Program-made: the position numbers and the translations under genes
Part shown: one piece after another, positions 1,131 to 11,897 of the stretch
How the letters are laid out: the number at the start of each line of letters is the position of its first letter
Numbering within the stretch: position 1 is the first letter of the stretch
Notes under the pieces: generated by a model
What the model was told of the DNA's origin: nothing
Seen by the model: only the letters and a program-made list of their open reading frames with translations
The model's database searches: none
DNA from: Flavobacteriaceae bacterium
GTDB lineage: Bacteria > Bacteroidota > Bacteroidia > Flavobacteriales > Weeksellaceae
Assembly (NCBI GenBank): GCA_031289875.1
Contig: JAITOO010000048.1
Span: 1-13,571, forward strand
Direction: 5' to 3'
Length of the DNA stretch: 13,571 bases

Positions 1131-3386
1131 TTACAATTTCAAATCAATGCCGATATAAAACATGGCAGGCGTAATCGGAGCATAAACCAGTGAAGTATCA
1201 AAATACGTCCCGAACGGATTTTCTGCTTCGATAATCGGGTTACGTTGTTTATATCCTCCAAGATTTTCCACACCTGCATACACACGCACTTTCTCGGAAA
1301 AATGTCTTGAAACCTGTGCATTGGCTAAGAAATAATCAGGAGAATACGTTATCCGTTGAAATTCATCAGGATTGGAAGAGGTGTCGGGAAGACGCTGTTT
1401 TCCAATGTATTGAACGGTGAAATCAAACGTCCATTTGCTATTTTTTTCAGTTTTGCGGGTTGAGTAAGTAGCATTCAGCAAGGCTCTGTCTTTGGCTGTG
1501 AAAGGGATTTCCCGTTTCCCGCCGTCATATTCTGCTTGAATGTCATACCACTTGTACGCCAAATGAAGTTCCAGATTTTCCGAAAGAAAAACGTCCCAAA
1601 CCGCTTGCAAAGAGTTGGAGTACGATTTTCCGTCAAGGTTGTAAAACCACAGTTCCTGCGGAGATTTGTCCAAATCAATCAAGACTTGTTTCTGAAAATC
1701 CGTTCGGTAAAAATCCAGCGTGAATGTGTTTTTCATGTTTCCGATTTTAAAATCCTGAACGATGCTTGCGCCGTAATTCCACGCAATTTCAGGCTGCAAG
1801 CCGTAAATATCGCCGTTGCCGGAACGAATTTGCACTTTTCGGGAGGAGGCAAAATACTGCATGTTTTCCGCAAAAACGTTGGCAGTCCGCATTCCGCGCC
1901 CTGCCGCCAAGCGCAAAGTGGTTTTCGGCAGAAGACTGTATTTGACGTTCAGTCTCGGCAAAATCTGCGTTCCTGCCAAATTGTGGAAATCTGCCCGCAA
2001 ACCCGCTACCACAGTGAGTTTTTTCCAAGAAGTATTGGTGTATTCGGCGAATACGCTCGGCACGTTTTCCGTTCGTTTGTAATTGTCCGTTTCAAAAGTT
2101 TCGTTGTAAACATCGTGAAGAAAACTAACGCCCAACTTGTATTTGTTATTGGTATCGCCCAAAATGCTCTCAAAAATCAAATTGGCAAAAAGGGAATTTT
2201 CATTGCCATTATAAATTCTCTGCCCAAAATAACTCCCAATGTCGTGATGTATGTACTTGGTTTGCAGTCCGATACTTTGATACGATTTATTCAGAAAAAC
2301 ATAGCCCGTTTTGTTCCAAACCTCAAAGTGAGTGTTCTCTATCCCAAGTCCATAACGGTTTTGCTTGAGTTTATCAACCGATTCGACAAAATCTTTTTGT
2401 CCGCCTAACTGTTTGTCGTACAAGGCTTGAACGGCAAAAATCGAAGCCCAGCCATTGGTTTGGATTCCGTCGTAGCGAAGAATGTTCATAGCGTTAATTT
2501 GCTTAGACAGAGGCAAATCCAAAAATCCGTCGTGATTCATGTCTTCTTTTGCCAGATTTCCGTTGAAGTGAAGCAGCGAAGTGTTGCTCCAATGGTTGCC
2601 CAAGTCTGTGCCATTCACTGCGTTAAATTCCAGTCTGACATTTTGGTTGGCGTAGAAGTTCAGATTGGTGAAATTTTTGTCCTGATATTTCATCAACTCC
2701 GTATTTATTTGACCTGTAATCGCTTCGTAGCCGTTGATGACGGTGCTTCCGCCTTTGGTCAATTGAATGGAATTAATCCATGTTCCGGACAGAAAATTGA
2801 TACCGTTTGCGGAAGTCAGACCGCGCACTTCGGGCATATTTTCAACGGTAATCGACGAATATTTTTGGTCTAAACCGAGCATTTTTATTTGCTTAGAGCC
2901 TGTTGCAGCGTTAGTTGTAGAGACATCGACCGTCGGGTTGGTCTCAAAACTTTCTGCCAAGTTGCAGCAAGCGGCTTTCAGCAGTTCAGTTTTGCTGAGG
3001 TTGAAAATCAAATCTGCGGATCTGGCGTTGATGTTTACTGCCTGCGCTCTCTGTCTGACAATCACTTCGTTCAGAGTTTTTTCGCTGGTTTCCAGCACAA
3101 TTTCTATCGGTTGTTCAATAGATTCGACTTTTACTTCTTTGGTTTTGAAACCGTCCTTTTCCGCTACGATATTGTACAGCCCGTCGTGATACATCAACTG
3201 AAAATTTCCCAGACTGTCTGTAACTGTCTTCATCACAGTGTGTTCCTTCCAGTGAACGTCTGCGCCGTTTACGGGAATTTTTTCTCCGTTTTCCGTCAGA
3301 ATGACGGCGTTTCCTTTCAGCGTTTTCATTTGTGCTAACGAGAAGATTCCCAAGCACATAAAAAATAAAATGGTGTATTTTTTCAT
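1131..3386 (-). CDS. TonB-dependent outer-membrane receptor, probable metal uptake
   Basis: A 751-residue outer-membrane transporter that would use TonB/ExbBD energy to import a bound ligand. It has a signal peptide (residues 1-19, MKKYTILFFMCLGIFSLAQ), a carboxypeptidase-regulatory-like beta-sandwich at about 22-100, a TonB-box-like LNEVIV at 105-110, then the plug and a C-terminal barrel ending GIDLKL. The plug contains a Cys-Cys pair at 140-141 (KAACCNLAESFETNP), then the conserved MLGLDQKYSSITVENMPEVRGL-like region, broken by family norms only slightly. Cys pairs of this kind occur in Bacteroidota receptors found next to metal-related genes. The gene upstream in the same orientation is an HYC_CC_PP-type protein, which fits copper or another thiophilic metal. 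The substrate is inferred, not shown. The 98-bp gap to that gene holds a dyad but no clear promoter, so the pair is probably one transcript. Confidence 0.9.
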   Translation of the reverse strand: MKKYTILFFMCLGIFSLAQMKTLKGNAVILTENGEKIPVNGADVHWKEHTVMKTVTDSLGNFQLMYHDGLYNIVAEKDGFKTKEVKVESIEQPIEIVLETSEKTLNEVIVRQRAQAVNINARSADLIFNLSKTELLKAACCNLAESFETNPTVDVSTTNAATGSKQIKMLGLDQKYSSITVENMPEVRGLTSANGINFLSGTWINSIQLTKGGSTVINGYEAITGQINTELMKYQDKNFTNLNFYANQNVRLEFNAVNGTDLGNHWSNTSLLHFNGNLAKEDMNHDGFLDLPLSKQINAMNILRYDGIQTNGWASIFAVQALYDKQLGGQKDFVESVDKLKQNRYGLGIENTHFEVWNKTGYVFLNKSYQSIGLQTKYIHHDIGSYFGQRIYNGNENSLFANLIFESILGDTNNKYKLGVSFLHDVYNETFETDNYKRTENVPSVFAEYTNTSWKKLTVVAGLRADFHNLAGTQILPRLNVKYSLLPKTTLRLAAGRGMRTANVFAENMQYFASSRKVQIRSGNGDIYGLQPEIAWNYGASIVQDFKIGNMKNTFTLDFYRTDFQKQVLIDLDKSPQELWFYNLDGKSYSNSLQAVWDVFLSENLELHLAYKWYDIQAEYDGGKREIPFTAKDRALLNATYSTRKTEKNSKWTFDFTVQYIGKQRLPDTSSNPDEFQRITYSPDYFLANAQVSRHFSEKVRVYAGVENLGGYKQRNPIIEAENPFGTYFDTSLVYAPITPAMFYIGIDLKL

Positions 3387-8618: not shown

Positions 8619-8999
8619 ATGAGTAAAGTAAAATACCAGTTGGAATTTGCCATGAACAGTTCTATCTCCTTGTTGTTCGATTACATAGGGACTTCGTCAG
8701 GCATGAGCGAATGGCTGGCAGACGAGGTGAGGGAGCGCGGAGACGAATTTATTTTCGTATGGAGCGGACAAGAAGAAGTAGCCAATTTGATTAGATATAA
8801 GGAAGAAGGTTTTGTGCGGTTTCGCTGGCAGGAAGACGAAGGCACGAAATACTATTGGGAACTCGCCATTCATGAAGACGAAATCACCAGTGACGTAGCT
8901 TTGGTTATTACCGATTTTGCAGAAGAAGACGATTTAGACCAATCCAAACTGTATTGGAGCAATTTAGTCGATGATTTGCGAAAAATTATCGGCTTTTGA
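8619..8999 (+). CDS. START-like domain protein
   Basis: A 126-residue cytosolic protein made of one START/SRPBCC-like fold as found widely in Bacteroidota (START_2 type). It begins YQLEFAMNSSISLLFDYIGT, the typical first strand and helix, followed by SEWLADEVRERGDEFIFVW, repeated amphipathic strands (FVRFRWQEDEGTKYYWELAI, DVALVITDFAEE), and a long closing helix ending LRKIIGF. It has no signal peptide or membrane segment and is strongly acidic. The fold usually binds a hydrophobic ligand, but no ligand or partner is known to me for this family. It lies 51 bp upstream of a class IV aminotransferase homologue, an adjacency I recall in other Flavobacteriales, which hints at a shared though unknown role. 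Family length and start match. Confidence 0.85.
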   Translation: MSKVKYQLEFAMNSSISLLFDYIGTSSGMSEWLADEVRERGDEFIFVWSGQEEVANLIRYKEEGFVRFRWQEDEGTKYYWELAIHEDEITSDVALVITDFAEEDDLDQSKLYWSNLVDDLRKIIGF

Positions 9000-9050: not shown

Positions 9051-9884
9051 ATGAAGATTATTTTTAATCATCAGGCAATTGATGAAGAAAACTTATTGAT
9101 AAAATACACCGAACATAGCTTGTTTTCAGGTGATTACGTGCAGGCATTCTGTTGGTTTTTTCAGAAAAAACTTCTTTTTTGGGAAGACGTTTATTTTCAA
9201 TTGATGGCTTCAATGCGAAAAATGAGAATGGAAATTCCTCAAAATTTCACACCTGAATTGTTTGAAAAAGAAATAGTTGATTTAATTAATGAAAACCTAT
9301 CAACGCAGGGAACTGTAAAAATTACGGTTTTTAGAAAATCAGATTCGGCTGTTGATTATGTCAGTGAAATTTTGCCCTATAAAAATTTTATCGAACTCCA
9401 AGATAACGAACTTGACATCTACAAGGAAATCAATATTTTTCCGAATTTGTTATCAGGAATTTACATTTTTCAGCCCGTCAATCTGCCGGCTCGAAAATAT
9501 GCACAAGAGAATGATTTGCAGGAAGTTATCATCTTGAACGATAAAAAGAATATTGCCCGCGCAGTTTCAGGCAATATTTTCATGATTCAAAATAACGAAA
9601 TCCGCTCCAATCCTCCTTTTGACGGGGCTTTTCTCTCTTCGCTAAAAAAGAATTTCATTACTTTCCTGCGGGAGGAAACCGATTATATCTATCGGGAAGA
9701 AACGCTGTCGCCGTTTCAAACGCAGTCGGTGCAGGAGATTTTTATTTTGAGTGATGAAAAAGGAGTAATTCCTGTTACAAAAATTCGAAAAACTACATTT
9801 TCTACCGACCGAACACTGTTTTTGGTCAAGAAATTTATCGGCTATGCAGTAAAAAAAAATTCAGACAATCCAAATCTGTCTTAA
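9051..9884 (+). CDS. Class IV aminotransferase homologue lacking key PLP residues
   Basis: A 277-residue protein with the class IV aminotransferase fold (branched-chain and D-amino-acid aminotransferases, aminodeoxychorismate lyase). Family landmarks are present: VYFQLMASMRKMRMEIP (47-63), ITVFR (91-95), LQEVIILND (156-164), SGNIFMI (173-179) and the C-terminal EIFILSDEKGVIPVTKIR. However, the position of the Schiff-base lysine, normally in an SSxK-type motif, appears to be Tyr138 (LLSGIY, 133-138). The glutamate six residues before the Phe... region, normally contacting the PLP ring nitrogen, appears to be Arg170 (IARAVSGNIF). The usual GDGVFET is GDYVQAF at 27-33. These are by-eye alignments. 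The frame is intact and codon use looks normal, so it is an expressed, probably non-PLP or catalytically dead paralogue rather than a broken gene. Confidence 0.8.
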   Translation: MKIIFNHQAIDEENLLIKYTEHSLFSGDYVQAFCWFFQKKLLFWEDVYFQLMASMRKMRMEIPQNFTPELFEKEIVDLINENLSTQGTVKITVFRKSDSAVDYVSEILPYKNFIELQDNELDIYKEINIFPNLLSGIYIFQPVNLPARKYAQENDLQEVIILNDKKNIARAVSGNIFMIQNNEIRSNPPFDGAFLSSLKKNFITFLREETDYIYREETLSPFQTQSVQEIFILSDEKGVIPVTKIRKTTFSTDRTLFLVKKFIGYAVKKNSDNPNLS

Positions 9885-10010: not shown

Positions 10011-11897
10011 TTGGACTTTTCTTTGCCTGAGAAAATATTGCATCATTATTGGGGATACGACCATTTCAGAGACCCGCAGAAAGAGATTATTCTCAGCATT
10101 TTAGACGGCATTAACACCGTTGCGCTTCTGCCGACGGGTGCCGGAAAATCTATTTGCTATCAAGTTCCCGCCCTCATGAGTATGGGGGTTTGCCTCGTCA
10201 TTTCCCCGCTTTTGGCGTTGATAAAAGATCAGGTTTTTCAGTTGAAAAGACGGCAGATTTCTGCCGAATATCTTTCTTCCGACCAAACGCCCGAACAGCA
10301 ATACACGGTTTTTGAAAGGCTTAAAAACAAAGAAATCAAATTGTTGTATGTCTCTCCTGAAAGGCTTTTGAATAAAACTTTTTTGGAGGTAGTTCGCGAT
10401 ATTCAAATTTCGTTTTTAGCGGTTGATGAAGCGCACTGCATCTCCGAATGGGGCAACGATTTTCGACCTTCCTATCAGCAAATCAAAGACTTTCGGCAGC
10501 ATATCGGAATGCAGATTCCCTGCATTGCAATGACGGCAACCGCCACTGAAAAAGTTTTGGAAGAAATTATTTTAAAACTGCAACTTAAAGAAGCTCAGGT
10601 TTTTAAAAAATCTTATGAACGAGAAAATCTGTCGCTCAGCATTGTGAAAACCGAAGACAAAATCGGACAAATAGAACGGATTTTAAAAAAACATCAAGGT
10701 TCGGGAATTATTTATTGCCGCACGAGAAACGAAACAAAAAATATTTGGCAAGTTCTCGAACACAAAGGCTTTGACGTAGATTTTTACCATGCGGGGCTGC
10801 CGCTGTCCGAAAAAATCCGAAAACAAGAAGAATGGACGGAAAGTCCGACCAAAGTATTGATTTCCACCAACGCTTTCGGCATGGGTATTGACAAGGAAAA
10901 TGTACGTCTCGTCATACATCTTTCGCCCCCCTATTCTTTGGAAAATTATTATCAGGAAGTTGGGCGTGCAGGGCGCGACGGACGGTTGTCTCAGGCTTTT
11001 CTGTTTTGGTCTGAAAATGAACTCGCTGAAATTGAGACCTCTATAAAAAACTCCATTCCCTCTTGGCTGGAATATGAAAAAATTATAAAATATTTGTATT
11101 CTTTGTATGGAATTGCTCCCAATGAATTGGCTGACAATTATTTTGACTTTAATTTTCATGAATTTCAGCAAAGTTTGAAAATCCATAAAAACAAAATCAT
11201 CAACGTGCTGGAATATCTGAATAACAGCAGTTTGCTTCATTGGAACTATGAACCGGCGGACAGCCGTCTGCAATTCAAATTTCCTGCGGAAAAATTGGAC
11301 AAAAAGTATTTTTTCGAAAAAGATTTTGAAATTATTGAGCAGATTTCGAGAAAAGTCATCGGCATTTTCAGCCATTCCGTTAAATTTTCCGAGAAGAAAC
11401 TCGCAGACGCTCTGATGATTTCACATGCCCGCCTTCGTTATATTTTATTGAAATACAGCCAATCAGGCGAGTTGTTGTATATCGACGGCAACAAACAGAA
11501 AATCAATTTCTTGTCTCCAAGAAATGACGAACTTCTATTCAACGAATACCGAAAAAAATTTGCCTTAATTCAAGAAAATAAATGGCGGAAATTTAAAGAA
11601 TTAGAATTTTTTATTCAAAATACAAAATTCTGCCGAATGAAGCTCATTTTGGGCTATTTCGGCGAAAAAATCAAGCACAACTGCGAAAAATGCGATGTCT
11701 GCCGACAAAAAGTTAAAACTAAAAATCCGGTACAAGACATTTTTCTTTTTATTGGAGAAAAAATCCGAAAAAAAGATGAAATTTACTCTGAATTTCAAGA
11801 GTTTACCTTTGATGAAATCCACGAAGTTTTGCAGGAACTCATCTCGGAAGAAAAAATCAAATTATTGAATTTTAACACTTATACCATTCATGAATAG
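10011..11897 (+). CDS. recQ: ATP-dependent DNA helicase RecQ
   Basis: A superfamily 2 helicase unwinding DNA 3' to 5' in recombination and fork repair. The 628-residue protein has motif 0 around HFRDPQ (18-23), Walker A LLPTGAGKS (39-47), DEAH box (139-142) joined to the aromatic-rich loop AHCISEWGNDFRPSY (141-155), motif III MTATAT (174-179), motif V STNAFGMGIDKENV (285-298) and motif VI YYQEVGRAGRDG (313-324). Four zinc cysteines lie at 541, 558, 561 and 564 (NCEKCDVC), unusually far past motif VI compared with E. coli (about 220 residues rather than about 60). As I recall, this is the arrangement of the short Bacteroidota RecQ, with helical and winged-helix sequence in between. No HRDC domain. 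The start is TTG at 10011, set by the promoter; the next Met is inside the core. It overlaps fmt by 8 nt. Confidence 0.95.
   Translation: MDFSLPEKILHHYWGYDHFRDPQKEIILSILDGINTVALLPTGAGKSICYQVPALMSMGVCLVISPLLALIKDQVFQLKRRQISAEYLSSDQTPEQQYTVFERLKNKEIKLLYVSPERLLNKTFLEVVRDIQISFLAVDEAHCISEWGNDFRPSYQQIKDFRQHIGMQIPCIAMTATATEKVLEEIILKLQLKEAQVFKKSYERENLSLSIVKTEDKIGQIERILKKHQGSGIIYCRTRNETKNIWQVLEHKGFDVDFYHAGLPLSEKIRKQEEWTESPTKVLISTNAFGMGIDKENVRLVIHLSPPYSLENYYQEVGRAGRDGRLSQAFLFWSENELAEIETSIKNSIPSWLEYEKIIKYLYSLYGIAPNELADNYFDFNFHEFQQSLKIHKNKIINVLEYLNNSSLLHWNYEPADSRLQFKFPAEKLDKKYFFEKDFEIIEQISRKVIGIFSHSVKFSEKKLADALMISHARLRYILLKYSQSGELLYIDGNKQKINFLSPRNDELLFNEYRKKFALIQENKWRKFKELEFFIQNTKFCRMKLILGYFGEKIKHNCEKCDVCRQKVKTKNPVQDIFLFIGEKIRKKDEIYSEFQEFTFDEIHEVLQELISEEKIKLLNFNTYTIHE

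Follow-up and report, generated by a model that had tools for sequence, protein, structure and literature searches.

Among PLP enzymes of fold type IV, the described systems closest to the protein reported here are PabC and the D-AAT and BCAT enzymes. For Pseudomonas PabC, the accessible part of PMC3174152 describes seven residues that are strictly conserved across four PabC enzymes, and a review of aminotransferases, likewise available in part (PMC9309667), gives matching roles for IlvE Lys160, Glu194, Arg60 and Gly220. Pseudoenzymes in general offer a second point of reference: excerpts of two sources treat the trypanosome AdoMetDC prozyme (PMC5201418) and the wider class (review PMC5106787), and the accessible sections of PMC12910592 describe PLP-fold relatives in M. 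tuberculosis without presumed enzymic function.

Here, we analyse a stretch of 13,571 nucleotides of bacterial DNA, which we refer to as the window, from a family that we coded f1 and identified as Weeksellaceae through named loci. It encodes a class IV aminotransferase homologue in which, as in pseudoenzymes in general and in the M. tuberculosis PLP-fold relatives, an enzyme fold is kept and catalysis is lost or presumed lost. Unlike in pseudoenzymes in general, the change affects an entire orthologue throughout a single bacterial family, and no live PF01063 relative was found in the window genome among the matches listed. We document its predicted fold, the loss of its cofactor site, its presence throughout the family in one clade, the purifying selection on its relatives, its synteny with a START_2 gene and a motif that it has in common with Lys-bearing orthologues. 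In the literature searched (open-licence sources and few subscription journals), we found nothing on this protein or on any lysine-less fold type IV clade. The best explanation, to which we assign a probability of about 0.5, is that of a retired PabC-type pseudoenzyme that holds a second, non-catalytic job as a structural or sensing partner, with START_2 as the best candidate for the protein it works with.

Fold and PLP site of the window protein

The open reading frame at positions 9051–9884 of the forward strand runs from ATG to stop and encodes 277 amino acids, as the original prediction had it in calling the full reading frame kept. Its product matches PF01063 (Aminotran_4) with an E value of 2.1e-14 and 54.4 bits, above the cut-off of 28.5, which places it in the class IV family, and 60 of 60 members of an alignment of Lys-bearing and lysine-less proteins (A2) match the same model at E 0.001. 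Against TIGR03461, the pabC model, it reaches 36.8 bits, below the cut-off of 176.85. The AlphaFold2 model has a mean pLDDT of 92.4 and a pTM of 0.90, and Foldseek searches with it returned TMq values of 0.75–0.83 to BCAT, D-AAT and PabC (about 0.78–0.83 for D-AAT and BCAT; 0.75–0.77 for the PabC structures 3lul and 6bb9, whose length is also alike), with all 50 matches listed being fold type IV enzymes. Judged from this model, the fold type IV structure is retained, which bears out the earlier claim that the fold is kept despite the loss of cofactor residues.

Residues were read one by one in 56 family genomes (36 + 20) and 62 named Weeksellaceae loci, a part of the 295 genomes in which the gene was matched; the 56 genomes overlap in part with the named loci and include a few below 90% completeness. 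The resulting 118 family rows correspond to 107 distinct sequences; the entropy test described below used the 71 that remain after collapsing at 85% identity. The gene and the replaced positions are as follows, with counts over the 107 family sequences and the 36 Lys-bearing rows outside the family.

9051..9884, + strand: putative pseudoenzyme gene, encoding a PLP-less class IV aminotransferase homologue of 277 aa (ORF call, PF01063, AlphaFold2, Foldseek)
9141..9149, + strand: Gln31-Ala32-Phe33 where GDGVFET has Phe-Glu-Thr; 71/107 family sequences have Ser for the Thr
9198..9200, + strand: Gln50 at the phosphate-binding Arg; Phe in 78/107 family sequences, Arg in 0/107 against 36/36 Lys-bearing rows
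9462..9464, + strand: Tyr138 at the Schiff-base Lys; Lys in 3/107 inside the family, 36/36 outside
9558..9560, + strand: Arg170 at the ring-contact Glu; Arg in 106/107 of the family, Glu in 35/36 outside
9636..9638, + strand: Ser196 at the phosphate-loop Gly; Ser in 105/107 of the family, Gly in 36/36 outside
9750..9752, + strand: Ser234 at PabC Asn236; Ser in 98/107 of the family, Asn in 36/36 outside

The placements proposed by eye in the original prediction agree with our alignments: Tyr138 falls on E. coli PabC Lys140 and hence on the Schiff-base lysine, Arg170 falls on Glu173, the ring-contact glutamate, and residues 27–33 read GDYVQAF where GDGVFET is expected. With D-AAT as the second anchor of the proposed structure-family check, the outcome was the same, as the profile of 14 lysine-less family members gave a near whole-length match (positions 5–273) in which the columns of Tyr138 and Arg170 hold the Lys (in DIKS) and Glu177 of D-AAT. 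E. coli IlvE ran off by one residue at Lys160 in the MAFFT alignments, where PabC and D-AAT serve as the anchors.

None of the seven residues given as strictly conserved across four PabC enzymes in the accessible part of PMC3174152 is found in the window protein. In E. coli numbering, which we mapped from the P. aeruginosa numbers of that study, the replacements are Phe26 to Gln31, Thr28 to Phe33, His42 to Val47, Arg45 to Gln50, Lys140 to Tyr138, Gly199 to Ser196 and Arg202 to Lys199. The loss thus goes further than the original prediction stated. Relative to D-AAT and BCAT, the protein is without the Schiff-base Lys, the acidic ring contact (Glu), the phosphate Arg and the phosphate-loop Gly. 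A second lysine taking over at the PLP site, named at the outset as a finding that would speak against the prediction, was set aside: no such residue appears in the sequence alignments, where the family-conserved lysines lie elsewhere, in columns 57, 125, 166 and 248, and a separate profile alignment agrees.

The window protein should not bind PLP. We consider it highly improbable that it continues to bind PLP or PMP, non-covalently and in an unusual site. D-AAT tolerates losing just the Glu, its E177K variant having been crystallized with PMP (title of 5daa), and Lys does stand at column 138 in 3 of the 107 family sequences, but these three also carry Arg170 and Ser196 and are without the phosphate Arg, and the window protein keeps 0 of the 7 PabC-invariant residues. 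Its exchange of Gly for Ser in the phosphate loop should moreover clash with the phosphate, since any change on the C-alpha of the PabC glycine would do so according to the accessible text of PMC3174152. Proteins of the lysine-less clade exceed the PF01063 cut-off, and automatic annotation would likely call them aminotransferases, yet PLP binding is not expected of them.

Distribution, descent and selection

The orthologue is present in 54 of 60 relatives, with 36 of 37 family members and 18 of 23 other genomes having it, and a profile search over sampled Weeksellaceae genomes of 90% or higher completeness matched the gene in all but one of them (295 of 296). The family assignment of the 36 f1 and 18 other orthologue rows is independent of residues; that of the named loci to Weeksellaceae or Flavobacteriaceae was made with residue states in view and agrees with what their records show. 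Of the 107 distinct orthologues in the family, 104 lack the Lys and all 107 lack the Glu and the Gly, a shared loss that excludes sequencing error or chance. By strict identity, the family sequences hold 0/7 PabC-invariant residues in 92/107 cases and never more than 3, and Lys-bearing orthologues outside the family hold 7/7 in 31/36 and never fewer than 5; all 12 Flavobacteriaceae proteins picked via START_2 keep 7/7. Some replacements within the family are mild (Ser for Thr28 in 71/107, Arg for Lys in 68/107).

Lys at column 138 occurs in L016 (G018), L191 (G118) and L192 (G061), yet with Arg170 and Ser196 present and the phosphate Arg absent; it is perhaps a chance change from Arg. Another outlier, L053 (G015, positions 2387–3166), is a very divergent member with an end branch of 3.44, from a genome that is 83% complete, and still adjoins START.

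When 60 chosen rows were put through a quick maximum-likelihood analysis, a branch with an SH-aLRT of 100 set all 26 lysine-less rows apart, and the lysine-less clade is nested among Lys-bearing orthologues; the long branches in the resulting tree are those of L053, L040 and E. coli PabC. The loss of the PLP site looks like a single, family-wide and conserved switch.

Selection was estimated from pairs of named loci that are at least 80% identical with dS of 0.05–1.2; the pairs are non-independent and none includes the window gene. On that basis, the median dN/dS of the pseudoenzyme is 0.059 (range 0.02–0.122; 100 Weeksellaceae pairs) and that of the Flavobacteriaceae orthologues 0.08 (6 pairs), with medians for START_2 of 0.022 (436 Weeksellaceae pairs) and 0.05 (6 Flavobacteriaceae pairs). 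We give next to no credence to a decaying pseudogene, a reading that the lost catalytic residues, the absence of the gene from G096, its short, broken frames in two other genomes (G105 and G312) and the one or two in-frame stops within some profile matches might suggest. Against it stand the median dN/dS of 0.059, the match in 295/296 genomes, the intact predicted fold and the lack of any internal stop in 36 family matches; moreover, the stop-flagged G069, G079, G085 and G118 gave frames of more than 200 aa across the site, which probably places those stops before the start. Taking the family together, dN/dS and near-universal presence refute decay.

The individual exceptions are few. In the sole genome of 296 without a match (G096, L219, positions 1431–1495), START and YqgE are separated by about 60 nt, without the pseudoenzyme in the gap. 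G105 (C1:2979454-2979876) and G312 (C87:115627-116040) gave two matches each, in short split frames of only 193 and 215 aa that may reflect a frameshift or an assembly error; the profile search likewise found two matches each in G062, G194 and G247. The absence from G096 and the split frames of G105 and G312 indicate that the pseudoenzyme is dispensable.

With a fold that is retained by prediction, catalytic residues that are lost in the alignments and purifying selection as measured on relatives, the protein is by these marks a pseudoenzyme, and we hold with high confidence that it is a conserved one without PLP. The suggestion that it was repurposed for a non-PLP role is supported in so far as a predicted fold without a PLP site is kept under purifying selection in relatives; the proposed link to START holds only in part, as described below.

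What the former pocket now does bears on the main rival to the START-partner mechanism, our first choice. According to this rival, the protein is a PLP-independent enzyme or small-molecule receptor whose pocket was rebuilt around Arg170, Ser196, Ser234 and Asn175 for a different ligand, converted or sensed, that START may deliver or share. We regard it as possible, though less probable than the partner role. The four residues are nearly fixed in the family (106/107, with His in the remaining sequence, 105/107, 98/107 and 103/107, respectively), and since column 138 spans ten residue types while Arg170 and Ser196 hardly vary, the pattern looks as if a new requirement had arisen, beyond simple relaxation. 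Similarly, 22 pocket columns are somewhat more conserved in the family than the rest (mean entropy 1.30 compared to 1.65), with 5% of random column sets being as low. However, this difference is slight and counts against a full retooling: in Lys-bearing orthologues the same columns are far more constrained (0.90 compared to 1.78 for the rest), and several of the family's pocket columns, that of the lysine included, vary widely.

Probable PabC ancestry and 4-aminobenzoate synthesis

The Lys-bearing flavobacterial orthologues mostly keep the PabC residues, and for the three tested the best NCBIfam model is pabC_Proteo, at 131–147 bits and thus below the pabC cut-off of 176.85. The Thr that the available portion of PMC3174152 ties to the PabC mechanism is present in 31 of the 36 Lys-bearing orthologues and is Ser in the other 5. 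We consider descent from a PabC-type enzyme likely.

The gene content of the genomes compared differs in a related respect. A long PabB-like gene (E < 1e-86) occurs in 20/23 genomes outside the family and 0/37 inside, and a shorter PabB-like match in 30/37 family genomes, one of them a fragment; as PabB-like matches reach the TIGR00553 cut-off in only 2/60 genomes, the PabB names are putative. Matches of 464–519 aa at about 1e-60 to 1e-72, found in both groups, were tentatively taken for anthranilate synthase, and those of 300–380 aa near 1e-20 for other chorismate enzymes. In six genomes compared, the short PabB match ends 14–17 nt before a short PF01063 match. An example of such a pair is G034:C1:1684265-1685561, with similar ones in other Weeksellaceae (L167–L184) and a class IV match of about 205 aa that carries PabC motif residues. 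We took 18 short PF01063 stretches from Pfam matches, of which a local profile read 12 and missed 6. All 12 short PabC-like genes that were read keep the Phe-x-Glu-Ser/Thr, His, Arg and Lys motifs together with Gly-x-x-Arg, with Lys for Arg in L173; in L172 the Gly-x-x-Arg motif was read from the alignment, the automatic pattern having matched another stretch. Taken from sequence, this suggests that a compact pabB–pabC pair took over 4-aminobenzoate synthesis in Weeksellaceae.

The short genes and the pseudoenzyme do not go together within the window's genus. All nine genus members keep the pseudoenzyme, and G001, G003, G005 and G006 have both short genes; short pabB and short pabC were not found in G000, G002, G004, G007 and G008, the window genome among them. 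Since these five genomes keep the pseudoenzyme, its job is seemingly independent of 4-aminobenzoate synthesis, and a subunit of that pathway is an unlikely identity for it. A folP gene is present in 58/60 genomes (two matches in G000), and its retention in the same five without short pabB and pabC may mean that they depend on imported 4-aminobenzoate.

The same gene content bears on a third reading, in which the protein would join a working class IV enzyme of its own cell, either IlvE or the short PabC, as a regulatory subunit, a role that catalytically dead paralogues have in some eukaryotic enzymes. The prozyme (PMC5201418, as far as accessible) is one such inactive paralogue that activates its live counterpart, and in the accessible part of PMC3174152 the PabC active site lies near the dimer interface, with a tyrosine from the partner subunit. 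We nevertheless find this reading improbable, and such a pairing unlikely for the window genome in particular, where no other PF01063 protein was found at E 0.001 among the matches listed and no short PabC at E 0.1; that genome is 97.8% complete in 233 contigs, so that a missed class IV gene is possible.

The START_2 neighbour and the motif at residues 45–67

The surroundings of the gene point to its descent and to a candidate partner. The neighbouring genes in the window are the following.

8619..8999, + strand: START_2 protein gene, 126 aa (PF19569, E 5.2e-33), 51 nt upstream of the pseudoenzyme gene on the same strand
10011..11897, + strand: gene for what we take to be a RecQ-like helicase; downstream in 17/18 Flavobacteriaceae loci and Moheibacter L165
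11890..12843, + strand: gene for a presumed Fmt-like methionyl-tRNA formyltransferase; downstream in 18/18 Flavobacteriaceae loci and Moheibacter L165

The upstream gene is a member of the START_2 proteins of Bacteroidia (PF19569, 2lio), a different protein from the pseudoenzyme and its neighbour; it matches the solved structure 2lio, titled 'Uncharacterized protein', with an E value of 7.4e-21, and no described function of START_2 was found in the literature searched. START_2 lies directly upstream in 35/36 family loci, the exception being G011, where START is on a different contig, and near the class IV gene in 80/80 named loci. The gene order is START-AT-YqgE-HU-Fmt-RecQ in Flavobacteriaceae, START-AT-YqgE-PdxH-HU-Fmt-RecQ in Moheibacter and START-AT-RecQ-Fmt in the window, a comparable arrangement that makes the lysine-less gene a positional orthologue of the Lys-bearing ones. 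The RecQ-like and Fmt-like neighbours are signs of common locus ancestry and have no part in the mechanism.

The original prediction asked whether the lysine and the glutamate are lost in all orthologues next to START genes, and would have read a lysine kept in that context as lineage-specific decay. START-adjacent orthologues of Flavobacteriaceae do keep the lysine (18/18 among the 80 named loci and 12/12 picked via START_2), those of Weeksellaceae lose it, and the decay does not follow, as the loss looks like the single conserved switch described above. As the START-adjacent Flavobacteriaceae proteins keep their PLP site, the pairing with START is older than the loss. The link to the upstream gene is accordingly upheld in position and weakened in other respects: the pairing predates the loss, no class IV gene was found beside START_2 in 20/20 other Bacteroidia compared, and G096 has START without the pseudoenzyme. 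A matching change in START_2 was also considered and set aside, as its sequence has only conservative switches coinciding with the loss of the PLP site.

A further trait common to Lys-bearing and lysine-less forms lies within the pseudoenzyme itself, outside its pocket.

9183..9251, + strand: ExxYFxLMASMRxxRxxIPxxxT, residues 45–67, a candidate interaction surface; common to START-adjacent Lys-bearing orthologues

Scored over 13 positions, this motif averages 12.8 in the 118 family rows and 12.6 in the 36 family rows that were not pattern-picked; the 80 named loci, among the matches listed, were found partly with patterns including this motif and KxIAR, and their conservation of it is not independent. 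The 22 START-adjacent Lys-bearing rows average 12.6 of 13, and the 12 Flavobacteriaceae proteins picked via START_2 score 11–13. In 14 Lys-bearing rows without a directly adjacent START, the mean is 7.4 (range 2–12), a contrast that is confounded with kinship, as these rows are also more distant; G040 and G049, counted among them, have START_2 about 9 kb away. E. coli PabC scores 3 and IlvE 4. The presence of the motif in both Lys-bearing and lysine-less forms hints that a non-catalytic role preceded the loss; START_2 is the first candidate partner for this stretch.

On the preferred reading, that of a retired PabC-type protein with a START_2 partner, the ancestor would have been a flavobacterial class IV protein of PabC type (4-amino-4-deoxychorismate lyase-like), presumably with that activity, encoded beside START_2. 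At the base of Weeksellaceae, its role in 4-aminobenzoate synthesis would have passed to the compact pabB–pabC pair, and this displacement may have been what allowed the old protein to lose its PLP site, namely the Lys, the Glu, the phosphate Arg and the phosphate-loop Gly. It would have been retained because of another, non-catalytic task that it performed even when it still held PLP. Residues 45–67 would bind another protein, with START_2 as the foremost candidate, and the former pocket, with the nearly fixed Arg170, Ser196 and Ser234, would either form a stabilized core or hold a different, perhaps anionic, small molecule.

A more specific version, which we put forward tentatively and hold to be doubtful as it stands, gives the ancestor a double life as PLP enzyme and START_2 partner. 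The enzymatic half would have been erased after the takeover by pabB–pabC, leaving a family-wide module of two genes, START and the pseudo-aminotransferase, that would bind a ligand or a protein, and in this function the Lys-bearing Flavobacteriaceae proteins would still be moonlighting. Orthologues with and without an active site in the same neighbourhood amount to a natural experiment in which comparison could isolate a non-catalytic function of a metabolic enzyme; with them, the role of START_2 becomes testable, and a non-orthologous displacement of 4-aminobenzoate synthesis in Weeksellaceae is suggested.

The locus holds one more recurrent neighbour, pdxH, whose product is the PLP-making oxidase. 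It lies within the fetched stretch in 55 of the 62 named Weeksellaceae loci (named loci L089–L165). A special link between pdxH and the pseudoenzyme was set aside, because nine genomes from other families (G039, G040, G041, G042, G045, G046, G049, G050 and G054) also have pdxH close to their Lys-bearing gene, and in the window's genus it sits elsewhere, so we take it for a probable ancestral neighbour. This pdxH neighbourhood is old and persists after the loss of the PLP site.
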